The position numbers were made by a program, and so were the translations under genes. From Lactiplantibacillus brownii (lineage in GTDB: Bacteria > Bacillota > Bacilli > Lactobacillales > Lactobacillaceae), in NCBI RefSeq assembly GCF_031085375.1, contig NZ_JAVCWF010000001.1, positions 1,426,001-1,490,000 of the forward strand: a DNA stretch of 64,000 nucleotides, given 5' to 3'. A model generated the notes under the pieces. The model was not told where the DNA came from. It saw nothing but the letters and a program-made list of their open reading frames with translations, and did not search any database. Shown in pieces: positions 58,704-63,057 of this stretch. Position 1 is the first letter of the stretch; each line of letters opens with the position of its first letter.

Positions 58704-58813
58704 CTAACAGTAATGAGAGTCCTTTAATCCGGCCCAGAGAGACTGAAAGGCACACTGTTAGCAATAACTTTCGTCGACGGTCGTGACAGCCTATGTCCGG
58801 CCGTCTTTCTTTG
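58704..58813 (+). promoter_or_regulatory. PyrR-type attenuator leader
   Basis: CTAACAGT (58704-58711) pairs with ACTGTTAG (58754-58761) around AGTCCTTTAATCCGGCCCAG and GAGAGACTGAAAGG, the PyrR-binding loop type. Then a terminator, GACGG (58776-58780) / CCGTC (58801-58805) with inner GACA/TGTC, and TTTCTTT. Against the remembered consensus ARUCCNGNGAGGYU the loop-closing U-G pair is replaced by C-A. Confidence 0.75.
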
Positions 58814-58845: not shown

Positions 58846-59385
<540 letters not shown>

Positions 59386-59416: not shown

Positions 59417-60499
59417 ATGGCAGACCGCTACTTGATTCTTGAAGACGGCAGTGCCTACCTGGGTGAGGGTTTCGGTTCACCAGCGGTTTCTACCGGTGAG
59501 ATCGTGTTCAATACGAGCATGACGGGTTATCAAGAGATCATTACGAATCAAATCTATCATAATCAAATTATTGCGTTTACCCAGCCAACAATTGGCAGTT
59601 ATGGGATCAACCATGATAGTTATGAATCGATTTTACCAACAGTTAAAGGTGTGGTGGTACGCGATGTTGCTAGTATTTCAACCAATCGTCAGCGTCGTTG
59701 GTCACTGGACCAATATTTAAAACAACAAAATATTCCGGGAATTAGTCATATTGATACGCGCCACTTAGCCAAGCAACTGCGCGCAAGTGGTCCTATGAAA
59801 GCCAGCATCGTGGACGTGGCAGATGCCCATGCTTTTGATCAACTGGGGGCCACCGTCTTGACTAATCAACAAGTTGCTGCGGTGGCGACGCCCAAACCAT
59901 TTCCTAATCCAGATACTGGTTTGAACGTCATCGTCATTGATTTTGGGTTAAAACACGGAATTTTGCGTGAATTAAGCAAACGCTCCTGCAACGTGACGGT
60001 ATTACCCTATACTGCGACGACTGAGGAAATTATTAATTTAGATCCAGATGGTGTCGTGTTGTCGACAGGTCCTGGGAAGCCACAGGATTTGCCAGATAGT
60101 GTACTCACGATGATTCAAAACATTCAAAATCGGATTCCGTTATTTGCGATTGGCCTCGGTCATGAATTATTTGCTATGGCTAATGGGGCTCAAATTATGA
60201 AATTGTCGCCAGAACATCATGGCGCCAATCATCCGATTCGCGAGGTTATTACAAATCAAATTATTTATGCATCACAAGGTCAGGGCTATGCCGTGAACCC
60301 AGATACGATCGACCGCAATAAATTGATCACGACTTTTGTTGATTTAATAGATGGCACGATCCAAGGGTTACGTTATCGGGATTTTCCAGCATTTTCGGTA
60401 CAGTTTTTCCCAGATGGTGCTCCCGGCCCAACTGAAACGCGGGATATTTTTGATGAATTTGTCGAATCAATGCAACAAGCAAGGGGGCCCGTTTGGTGA
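59417..60499 (+). CDS. carA: Carbamoyl phosphate synthase small-subunit-like pseudoenzyme
   Basis: 360 residues. The overall CarA fold is recognised from FNTSMTGYQEIITN and DTRHLAKQLRASG (N-domain) and FAIGLGHELFAMANGAQ, HHGANHPI and SVQFFPDGAPGP (amidotransferase domain). The catalytic Cys (GICLGHQ) is Gly246, the His region SQNHGY is SQGQGY (Gln289), and QYHPEASPGP is QFFPDGAPGP (Phe331, Asp333), so all three glutaminase residues are lost. The frame is open and translated signals are good. It overlaps carB by GTGA. Confidence 0.9.
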   Translation: MADRYLILEDGSAYLGEGFGSPAVSTGEIVFNTSMTGYQEIITNQIYHNQIIAFTQPTIGSYGINHDSYESILPTVKGVVVRDVASISTNRQRRWSLDQYLKQQNIPGISHIDTRHLAKQLRASGPMKASIVDVADAHAFDQLGATVLTNQQVAAVATPKPFPNPDTGLNVIVIDFGLKHGILRELSKRSCNVTVLPYTATTEEIINLDPDGVVLSTGPGKPQDLPDSVLTMIQNIQNRIPLFAIGLGHELFAMANGAQIMKLSPEHHGANHPIREVITNQIIYASQGQGYAVNPDTIDRNKLITTFVDLIDGTIQGLRYRDFPAFSVQFFPDGAPGPTETRDIFDEFVESMQQARGPVW

Positions 60500-63057
60500 A
60501 TAATCAAGTCATTTCAAAAGTGTTAATTATTGGCGCGGGCCATAACGATATTGGTCGTGAAGGGCAACATGACGCGGCTGTGACGCAGATTGGTAGTGCC
60601 ATTCGTAAGCTGGGAATCGCTGTTATTTTGGTTGATAACAATCCCTTTTCAGTGGCGGCGGAAAATAATTTTGCGGATAAAGTCTACATTGAACCTTTAA
60701 CAGTGGGTTCATTGACCAAAATTATTCAGACGGAACAACCGGATGGCTTGATTCCGTCATTAGGTGGGATTCAAGGTGTCAATTTGATTCAAGGCCTGAT
60801 TCGAAATAATGTCTTGAAAAACAATCAGCTGCGGCTATTGCAGTGGTCACCTGAAATGATTGACATGGTTGTGAACCCGGCTTTGATGAGTAATCGCTTG
60901 AAGGATCTGACTCAGCCGGTAATTGCGTCACAGGTCGTGGCTAGTCAAGCCGAGGCGGATCAAGTGATTCGCACGGTCGGTTTTCCGGTGATCGTGAAGT
61001 CAGTCGCCCCACGTATTGAAGCTAGTCGCCAACTCTGTGAAGATGAAGAAGACTTCCAACAGGCATTAGCAAAAGGATTCAAATTATCAGCCACCAAACA
61101 ATGTATCGTGGAACAAAGCATCGTGGGCTATAAAGAGATCGAGTTTGTGGGGGTTCGTGATCATAAAGGAACCGCGTTGCTAGTCGCTGGCATGGAAAAC
61201 TTTGATCCAGTTGGGATTCATTCAGCGGATTCAATTGTATTTGCGCCAACCCAAACGATTACTGATCAGGAGTATCAACAGTTTCGTTCGGCAACTTTGA
61301 AAATCATGCAAGCGCTGCACATTGTGGGTTCTTGTCATGTGCAATTTGCGTTAGACCCAACGACGCAACAGTATTATGTGATCAAGGTCACGCCATACTT
61401 TGATCGGGCGATGGCGTTAGCTGCTCGCGCAACCGGTTATCCGTTAGCGACAATCGTGGCTAATTTGATGGCTAACTTGAGTTTAGCTGAGATCAAGTTA
61501 CCCGCAGCTTATCGAAAACAGACCGCGTTGATCGAGCCAGTGTTGGACCATATCGTTTGTCGGATTCCAATTTGGCCCTTTAATGTGTTGAAAAAGGTCA
61601 GTCATCAATTGGATACGGTCATGGAATCCACCGGGTCGGTGATTGGAATTGGTCGTTCGACTGAAGAAGCGTTGTTGAAGGGCTTGCGGGCAACCGACGA
61701 GTCTCGCTATCACGTGATTGCCAATCAACCGCAACGGTATTCAGAAGGTGAACTGATCCAACGGTTGATTCATCCGCAAGCTGGGCGCATGTTAGTCTTG
61801 TTGGAGGCACTGAATCGTGGTTACCAGATTGATGAATTGGCCGAACTGACTAAAATTGATGCTTTTTATTTTTATAAATTAAGTCATATTATTGCGATTG
61901 AAAAAGCTTTGCGTACGCATCCATTCGATGTCCACGCGCTTGGTCGTGCGAAGTATTTTGGGTTTACTGACGAGGATGCCGCTGCTGCTTGGCAAGTCAC
62001 CCCGGCGGAAGTGGCTCATTTTGCGATTGAAAATGAAATTCAAGCTACCTTCAAAGAGGTTGAGCCCACTGCTGGTGAGTTTACTGAACAAACGAATACG
62101 TACTATTCAACTTATGAATTTGATAATGAAAGTTCACAATTGGCTGGCAATCGGGCCGTTGTGATTGGTACAGGTGCCAACCGTATTGGGACCAACCATG
62201 CCAATGATTATTTAGTGTCGCAACTCTTGTTCTATCTTAAAAAAGCCGATTATCAGACCATTTTAATCAATGCTAATCCGAACAGTGTTGCCATGACCCC
62301 ACAGCTGGCGCATAAGCGGTACATTGAACCCAAACAAGTTTCTGATATCCTAAACGTTTTGGCGATTGAAAAACCGGCGGTGATCTTTACCACGTATCAC
62401 GATTATCGGCTGGGACAGCAATTGACAAAATTAGGTTATCAAGTGGTACAGATCAACAATAGCCTGCCACGCGAGCAGATCAAGACGAACGATTCGCCGG
62501 CGGTTGAAGTGATTACGGATGGTAGTGATGTTGCAATCTTTGGTATTAGTGAGATTATTGCGGGTAATAACTTGCGGTCAGGTGTACGCGGTTCAGTTGA
62601 AGTTTTTCCGATTCAAGATAAGGCGGAAAATCAGGCAATTAAGGCGTTGAGCACTGAAATTAAGCAACGCGTCTTAGCTTTTGGCGTTCCCGGATTGTAT
62701 ACGATTCGCTTGACGATTGTTGATGCGGCGTTACATTTGGCAACAATCGAACCAATGAGTTTGGCGACGATGGCGTTGATTAGCAAAGCGAGTGGCTCCA
62801 GTGTGACGCGGTTACTCTTGCATGTTAAATTAGGTGAAGCTCTCGACAAAGTGATGTACGATTATCCAGACTTGGCTAAGTTGGCGACGATTTTTGTGCA
62901 GGCCAACACCTTTCCATATAATCAGTTGCAGATTTATGACGAAGCTGAAACCACCGGTGAGCCTGGACATGCGACCGGGACCGTCATTGCACATGGTAAA
63001 ACATTGAAGGAAGCCTTGGAAGCTCTGAATGCAGGCAACGAAAGTACTGATTTTTAA
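60496..63057 (+). CDS. carB: Carbamoyl phosphate synthase large-subunit-like pseudoenzyme, shortened
   Basis: 853 residues against about 1060 in active enzymes. The first half keeps the shape, but the ATP-grasp glycine loop RPSFTLGGTGGG is KSVAPRIEASRQ (about 168-179) and the metal-binding EMNPR is KVTPY (297-301). The second half starts at NRAVVIGTGANRIG (about 552) but lacks about 90 residues of its ATP-grasp (between NNSLP and VEVITDG), and EVNPR is IEPMS (751-755). The C-terminal allosteric domain is missing. GTG 60496 overlaps the carA stop; TTG 60493 is an alternative. Confidence 0.9.
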   Translation: MNNQVISKVLIIGAGHNDIGREGQHDAAVTQIGSAIRKLGIAVILVDNNPFSVAAENNFADKVYIEPLTVGSLTKIIQTEQPDGLIPSLGGIQGVNLIQGLIRNNVLKNNQLRLLQWSPEMIDMVVNPALMSNRLKDLTQPVIASQVVASQAEADQVIRTVGFPVIVKSVAPRIEASRQLCEDEEDFQQALAKGFKLSATKQCIVEQSIVGYKEIEFVGVRDHKGTALLVAGMENFDPVGIHSADSIVFAPTQTITDQEYQQFRSATLKIMQALHIVGSCHVQFALDPTTQQYYVIKVTPYFDRAMALAARATGYPLATIVANLMANLSLAEIKLPAAYRKQTALIEPVLDHIVCRIPIWPFNVLKKVSHQLDTVMESTGSVIGIGRSTEEALLKGLRATDESRYHVIANQPQRYSEGELIQRLIHPQAGRMLVLLEALNRGYQIDELAELTKIDAFYFYKLSHIIAIEKALRTHPFDVHALGRAKYFGFTDEDAAAAWQVTPAEVAHFAIENEIQATFKEVEPTAGEFTEQTNTYYSTYEFDNESSQLAGNRAVVIGTGANRIGTNHANDYLVSQLLFYLKKADYQTILINANPNSVAMTPQLAHKRYIEPKQVSDILNVLAIEKPAVIFTTYHDYRLGQQLTKLGYQVVQINNSLPREQIKTNDSPAVEVITDGSDVAIFGISEIIAGNNLRSGVRGSVEVFPIQDKAENQAIKALSTEIKQRVLAFGVPGLYTIRLTIVDAALHLATIEPMSLATMALISKASGSSVTRLLLHVKLGEALDKVMYDYPDLAKLATIFVQANTFPYNQLQIYDEAETTGEPGHATGTVIAHGKTLKEALEALNAGNESTDF

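Follow-up and report, generated by a model that had tools for sequence, protein, structure and literature searches.

In CPS1, the vertebrate carbamoyl-phosphate synthase (CPS), the glutaminase-like domain is dead, its Cys having been replaced, and carbamoyl phosphate is still made, from ammonia. In the two-subunit enzyme, bicarbonate is used by the amino half of the large subunit, CarB, according to the available part of PMC6022934. The pyrimidine (pyr) operon of Lactiplantibacillus plantarum is under inorganic-carbon control through the regulator PyrR2, as stated in the accessible text of PMC3582564, which cites Arsene-Ploetze 2006. Here we describe a pair of CPS-like genes, called carA' and carB', which follow a pyrR gene in a 64,000-nucleotide stretch of Lactiplantibacillus brownii DNA (RefSeq assembly GCF_031085375.1, contig NZ_JAVCWF010000001.1, positions 1,426,001 to 1,490,000 of the forward strand; hereafter the window).

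We consider it on balance probable that the pair would represent a conserved pseudo-CPS, retaining the fold of the enzyme and serving, without catalysis, as a partner of the pyrimidine regulon that PyrR controls. Sequence comparison establishes the degeneration, its conservation, purifying selection, the linkage to pyrR and retention in genomes whose CPS, aspartate carbamoyltransferase (ATCase) and dihydroorotase fall under curated cut-offs. The widespread pseudo-CPS is thus real, while a regulatory role with PyrR is its best-supported, if unproven, explanation. Within the set of papers searched, queries on CPS pseudoenzymes, PyrR2 and the locus names returned nothing on the pair and no CPS-derived partner of PyrR.

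Degenerate active sites under purifying selection

Residue positions are given in Escherichia coli numbering, and those named are positions which we take, from the CPS literature, to be catalytic. CarA' carries the substitutions C269G, Q273E, N311G, H312Q, H353F and S47I, by which both the catalytic Cys269 and His353 are lost to Gly and Phe. Position E355, the third of the triad, is occupied by Asp, as in the true PyrAA of the same genome, and this change is therefore neither damage nor discriminating. The predicted model of CarA' superposes on E. coli CarA (1cs0_B) with a template modelling (TM) score of 0.93. CarA' exceeds both curated small-subunit cut-offs (NF009475, 467.8 bits versus 221; TIGR01368, 372 versus 307.35) and is consequently labelled a CPS by automatic annotation.

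CarB', at 854 amino acids (aa), is 204 residues shorter than the 1058-aa PyrAB of the same genome, with which it shares 40% identity across residues 6-599. It has the CPS preATP-grasp, ATP-grasp and oligomerisation domains; its Pfam matches comprise CPS D1, D2 and D3 and other ATP-grasp entries, and none is to the MGS (allosteric) domain. The AlphaFold2 model aligns with residues 3-936 of E. coli CarB (1jdb_K). At the first site we found R129P, R169K, G175I, G176E, E299K, N301T and R303Y, with E215, N236, H243, Q285 and R306 retained. At the second, R715 and H754 fall within an alignment gap and Q829, E841, N843, R845 and R848 are non-canonical; alignment of this half is less certain, S792 being placed differently by two alignments. 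CarB' scores 600.5 bits with TIGR01369, under the curated cut-off of 1027, and 575.7 bits with NF003671, under that of 599.

These results bear out most of a preliminary description of the window, made from its letters alone. It had reported a CarB homologue short of about 200 residues over 853 open codons, and the frame is indeed uninterrupted from GTG at 60496 (854 codons from TTG at 60493, both starts overlapping the end and stop of carA'). The replaced first glycine loop, the deletion and damage in the second ATP-grasp (with the alignment uncertainty just given) and the missing allosteric domain were all recovered, and the structure predictions that it had proposed align each single subunit with its E. 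coli counterpart. Its statement that the first-site metal ligands are replaced holds for E299 and N301 and fails for Q285, which is kept. An essential point beyond that description is the loss of the catalytic Cys and His from the partner CarA'. The description had also judged the combination incompatible with carbamoyl phosphate synthesis. Damage at three active sites, the shortfall against TIGR01369 and the 16 of 58 carriers of the pair in which CPS above cut-off was not found (see below) argue in the same direction, and the view that CarA'B' would be unable to make carbamoyl phosphate is supported. We do not regard the pair as a working CPS because each of the three active sites in the complex has lost conserved catalytic residues, and because two further CPS genes of this genome, located in the true pyr operon and at a separate locus, exceed the TIGR01369 cut-off.

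The replacements are themselves conserved. Among the best 120 of 7296 sequences scored as CarA' homologues, G269 occurs in all 120, the Cys nucleophile and H353 in none, and G269 together with E273 in 115. The 120 listed CarB' matches (of 3992) divide into 34 short and 86 long sequences. K299 and K169 occur in every one of the 34 short sequences and P129 in 33, and position 303 is Tyr in 33 and Phe in one; E215, H243 and R306 are retained by all 34. The 86 listed long matches are canonical at each of 20 tabulated positions (12 first-site, eight second-site). The pair of the window belongs to a core group that forms one clade over at least ten genera (100/100 in the CarA tree and 96/92 in the CarB tree; six of the 16 genus-level rows used). 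Outside the listed matches this clade varies: four Pediococcus, genome G024 and Weissella oryzae have Arg at 299, Pediococcus and G024 retain N301, R306 is missing from G021, G026, G027 and G036, and E215 is missing from one Pediococcus.

At the level of the genus, the carB' frame stays open in 15 loci, with identities of 83-94%; 14 of these bear the title Lactiplantibacillus and one, a metagenome-assembled genome, the title uncultured Lactobacillus. All 20 other genomes of the genus likewise carry it free of internal stops, which rules out a strain-specific lesion or an assembly error. CarA'B' is an old, family-wide pseudoenzyme and not the lesion of one strain. Across the 15 loci and the window, all 16 of which have open frames, the median nonsynonymous rate (dN) is 0.027 for carA', 0.103 for carB' and 0.086 for pyrR2. 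The corresponding median ratios to the synonymous rate (dN/dS) are 0.012, 0.033 and 0.040, estimable for 92, 25 and 65 of 120 pairs, respectively, with synonymous sites near saturation. The pair is under strong purifying selection and is not decaying. Function is indicated most strongly by the dead glutaminase subunit, which is better conserved than PyrR itself.

Constraint is unevenly distributed along CarB'. The lowest proportion of nonsynonymous differences (pN) lies in codons 361-450. Chosen subsets of 21 pseudo and 23 true CarB sequences (two degenerate full-length rows having been excluded from the latter) gave mean top-residue frequencies, pseudo versus true and from the N- to the C-terminal region, of 0.52/0.85, 0.58/0.83, 0.60/0.63, 0.55/0.85 and 0.39/0.75. 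The third, the oligomerisation region, is the sole one not relaxed, the catalytic domains being relaxed, and this fits a protein-binding role.

Distribution of the pair and its link to PyrR

We counted as carriers those genomes in which a frame shorter than 910 aa scored at least 772 bits with a pseudo-CarB model. Of the 111 genomes surveyed in the family, 58 are carriers by this definition, in 21 of 40 genera. G072 (861 aa, 675 bits) was excluded as a true CPS with an internal stop, its locus (G072:C1:715884-719021) scoring above the CPS cut-off with one in-frame TAG. PyrR was detected at E<=1e-25 in 106 genomes, including all 58 carriers, and lies no more than 6 kb from carB' in 50 of these. 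As a matter of presence alone the association is weak (58/58 carriers versus 48/53 others; one-sided Fisher p 0.022, with kinship not corrected). At loci L027 and L029 of G022 and G025, carA'-carB' directly follows rluD with no intervening pyrR, PyrR being found elsewhere.

CPS above the TIGR01369 cut-off occurs in 80 of the 111 genomes, comparably distributed between carriers (42/58) and others (38/53; Fisher p 1.0), and the pair is therefore not tied to CPS. PyrB above cut-off was found in 88 genomes overall; among the 16 carriers in which CPS above cut-off was not found, PyrB above cut-off was not found in 13 (nine genera), nor was PyrC above cut-off in the same 13, although G095 has a weaker full-length PyrC match and three of 14 control genomes likewise fall under that cut-off. 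G071, G135 and G144 have PyrB above cut-off and no CPS above cut-off, and carbamoyl phosphate may thus come by another route there. Because relatives keep the dead copy, some of them without a recognizable working enzyme or pathway, the pair probably does a regulatory job.

PyrR RNA elements (RF00515) are present in many of these carriers, occurring at E<=0.001 in 10 of the 13 carriers without CPS and PyrB above cut-off and in 13 of the 16 without CPS, and above the gathering score in eight of the 16. In G033 and G035, four such elements, two of them under the gathering score, precede permease genes, two of the Xan_ur_permease and two of the cytosine/purine permease type; at L045 of G035 a nucleoside 2-deoxyribosyltransferase-family gene stands between element and permease. 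PyrE is above cut-off in G033 and not in G035. In the window, the leader between rluD and pyrR2 is a probable PyrR site: when 176 bases were searched it matched RF00515 at 26.7 bits (E 0.046), under the 54 bits of the gathering score, and a search over 10 kb at E<=1 did not detect it. Most of its core is conserved across 16 leaders; the leader of the true pyr operon scores 54.1 bits. No gathering-level element was found beside pyrR2 in nine loci of relatives, and promoter and terminator scans were not clearly above shuffles.

Taken as a mechanism, partnership with PyrR would involve a CarA'B' heteromer formed as in CPS, whose remodelled first-site pocket may bind a small molecule, with bicarbonate, carbamate, carbamoyl phosphate or a nucleotide as candidates. 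CarA'B' would also bind PyrR, or alter its activity, level or output, and the pair would serve as a non-catalytic, protein-binding partner of a PyrR regulon consisting of the pyr operon and nucleobase permeases.

Several observations weigh against this proposal. Firstly, and against a bicarbonate site in particular, E299 and R303 are gone in the core clade, and even H243 is missing from G070, G082, G080 and G139. Secondly, PyrR lies elsewhere in the genome in eight of the 58 carriers, and its adjacency in the remainder may perhaps be inherited order, rluD-pyrR-permease-carA-carB being the arrangement in some relatives. Thirdly, PyrR at E<=1e-25 is missing from five genomes, which also lack the core pair; they are weak evidence, as they represent three genera only and a weaker PyrR match exists in G029, one of the five. 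Fourthly, to pass a curated cut-off is no proof of activity and to fail it no proof of absence; copies in G030 and G076 (the latter among the 38 non-carriers with CPS) exceed the CPS cut-off though degenerate. Lastly, the search for PyrR RNA elements gave none for G063, G083 and G102, all among the 13 carriers without CPS and PyrB above cut-off, and these negatives count against the regulon reading unless the model misses elements, as it does at E<=0.001 for pyrR2 itself.

Beyond the core clade we considered 20 further loci, picked because their CPS scored low, adjoined PyrR or had been seen earlier. CarA C269G is present in 19, while G076 keeps the Cys and has Leu and Asn at H353 and E355; the substitution also occurs in G023, G028, G030, G039 and G054 and in a second copy of G034. 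PyrR-linked degenerate CarB proteins measure 1054-1067 aa, 791-801 aa, 643 aa (G065) or 577-579 aa (G039, G054). At full length, the PyrR-linked CarB of G064 and G100 (L087:1403-4567 and L088:4428-7628) has all 12 tabulated first-site residues intact and a destroyed second site, possibly an early stage of reduction. G039 (L037:6256-7995) and G054 (L038:3816-5549), from another family of the order, present pyrR, pyrB and carA followed by the 577-579-aa CarB-like gene; their pyrB is above the TIGR00670 cut-off, and the short CarB-like protein is the sole CarB match of each genome. In G045, from another family of the order, a dead CPS shares one gene run (L098:1797-10048) with pyrR and with genes for a carbamoyltransferase, a dihydroorotase-like amidohydrolase and a dihydroorotate dehydrogenase; catalytic residues are gone from its CarA and from both CarB sites, and it is the sole CPS match in the genome.

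An unrooted CarA tree without outgroup (47 rows, omitting G085, G142, G119 and most Lactiplantibacillus rows as near-copies) splits dead from live sequences at one branch in 74% of bootstraps. Rooted with ten outgroup rows, the tree requires four changes of the dead label, and a single origin of all PyrR-linked dead CPS is thus unsupported. As at least two of these changes are forced by starred branches, the death of CPS beside PyrR has probably happened more than once.

Competing explanations

A more specific proposal is that CPS was converted into an inorganic-carbon sensor of the PyrR regulon. The scaffold of CarA' and the bicarbonate-using amino half of CarB', which persist throughout the size classes observed, would bind bicarbonate, carbamate or some related ligand, would catalyse no reaction and would set PyrR activity. 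The PyrR preceding carA'-carB' in L. plantarum (L014) would, by exclusion, be PyrR2: the available part of PMC7911632 gives pyrR2 as lp_1782 and pyrR1 as lp_2704, and the latter is numbered close to lp_2700, a pyr gene. If true, the proposal would account for the response of L. plantarum PyrR2 to inorganic carbon; we hold it to be rather unlikely.

It is also unlikely, in our estimation, that CarA'B' is a neofunctionalized enzyme, its remodelled pockets running another, perhaps metal-free, reaction or binding and hydrolysing another substrate. Such an enzyme would be consistent with the conservation of replacement residues described above (CarA' G269/E273; CarB' K299, Y303, P129 and K169 in the listed short matches). 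However, all three catalytic sites have lost residues together and the catalytic domains are the most relaxed, the Pediococcus, G024 and Weissella proteins have Arg at 299 and some of them keep N301, and other PyrR-linked pairs have lost different residues.

Alternatively, CarA'B' may be a structural or allosteric subunit which assembles with the true CPS or ATCase and stabilizes or tunes it. The same pathway offers a precedent, an inactive dihydroorotase needed for ATCase assembly in Pseudomonas putida (available part of PMC6022934), and both the constrained oligomerisation region and the 42 carriers with CPS above cut-off are compatible with this role. Against it, CPS above cut-off is as common without the pair as with it; a regulatory subunit of the true CPS is unlikely given the 16 carriers in which CPS above cut-off was not found, as is an ATCase scaffold given the 13 also without PyrB above cut-off. 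We therefore regard this explanation as quite improbable.

Pseudogenes on their way out, retained by chance, would account for the apparent reduction in size among PyrR-linked relatives, which runs from full length down to about 577 aa, and for the one or two stops reported inside 13 of the 58 carrier matches, but this reading is scarcely credible and is ruled out by open frames and purifying selection: dN/dS medians are 0.012-0.033, the genus genomes show no stops, a single core clade spans at least ten genera, and the four stop-flagged loci which we read (G024, G025, G026 and G027) are open frames of 818-847 aa whose stop is the gene end. A working CPS with unusual residues is just as implausible, despite its fold, CarA/CarB pairing and retained E215, N236, H243, Q285 and R306, in view of the missing CarA' nucleophile, the loss of E299, N301 and R303 and the incomplete second ATP-grasp.

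The locus and its relation to described systems

The window belongs to a genome of 3.35 Mb whose closest named relatives are Lactiplantibacillus species. Between 57309 and 63057 the plus strand reads lspA, rluD, pyrR, carA-like and carB-like (lspA and rluD named by eye); the features discussed here are collected in Table 1. The genome's second PyrR sits within the true pyr operon, and a second ATCase lies outside that operon (G000:C1:2105010-2105903; 292 bits, above cut-off).

Table 1. Features of the pseudo-CPS locus, in window coordinates.
Feature	Position	Strand	Description
Leader upstream of pyrR2	58717..58812	+	Putative diverged PyrR-binding leader with terminator-like hairpin; RF00515 26.7 bits
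pyrR2	58861..59385	+	PyrR-family regulator/uracil phosphoribosyltransferase, 174 aa; NF003548 275.6 bits versus cut-off 218
carA'	59417..60499	+	Dead CPS small subunit, 360 aa
carB'	60493..63057	+	Shortened CPS large subunit, dead; 854 aa, or 853 with the GTG start at 60496
carB' first ATP-grasp metal site	61384..61398	+	Codons 298-302, KVTPY replacing E299-x-N301-P-R303
carB' oligomerisation-domain region	61693..62127	+	Codons 401-545; conservation least relaxed versus true CPS
carB' second-half remnant	62128..63054	+	Codons 546-854; second ATP-grasp partly missing, allosteric domain absent

Many genes of lactic acid bacteria annotated as carbamoyl-phosphate synthase would, on these results, not be CPS, and metabolic models that treat auxotrophy or CO2 dependence are misled by such annotations. 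Among the relatives, enzyme death can be followed as a natural series, which starts with full-length proteins that have one dead site and ends at about half length. If the pair works with PyrR, it would add a further component to a textbook attenuation system and offer a testable answer to the link between pyrimidine genes and inorganic carbon.

Relative to described systems, CarA'B' shares its two-subunit fold and gene order with glutamine-dependent CPS (CarA/CarB, PyrAA/PyrAB; TIGR01368/TIGR01369), but is without catalytic residues at three sites, without the allosteric domain and with an incomplete second ATP-grasp. It is connected to PyrR attenuation (RF00515) by the preceding pyrR2, by a leader with sub-threshold resemblance to a PyrR site and by the presence of PyrR in all carriers. 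In L. plantarum, PyrR2 would, by the exclusion given above, be the PyrR of the orthologous gene set. The inactive Pseudomonas dihydroorotase, as described in the available part of PMC6022934, is likewise a dead homologue retained in the pyrimidine pathway; it assembles ATCase, whereas CarA'B' persists where PyrB above cut-off was not found. With CPS1, finally, CarA'B' has in common a dead glutaminase domain, and it is additionally damaged at both phosphorylation sites.

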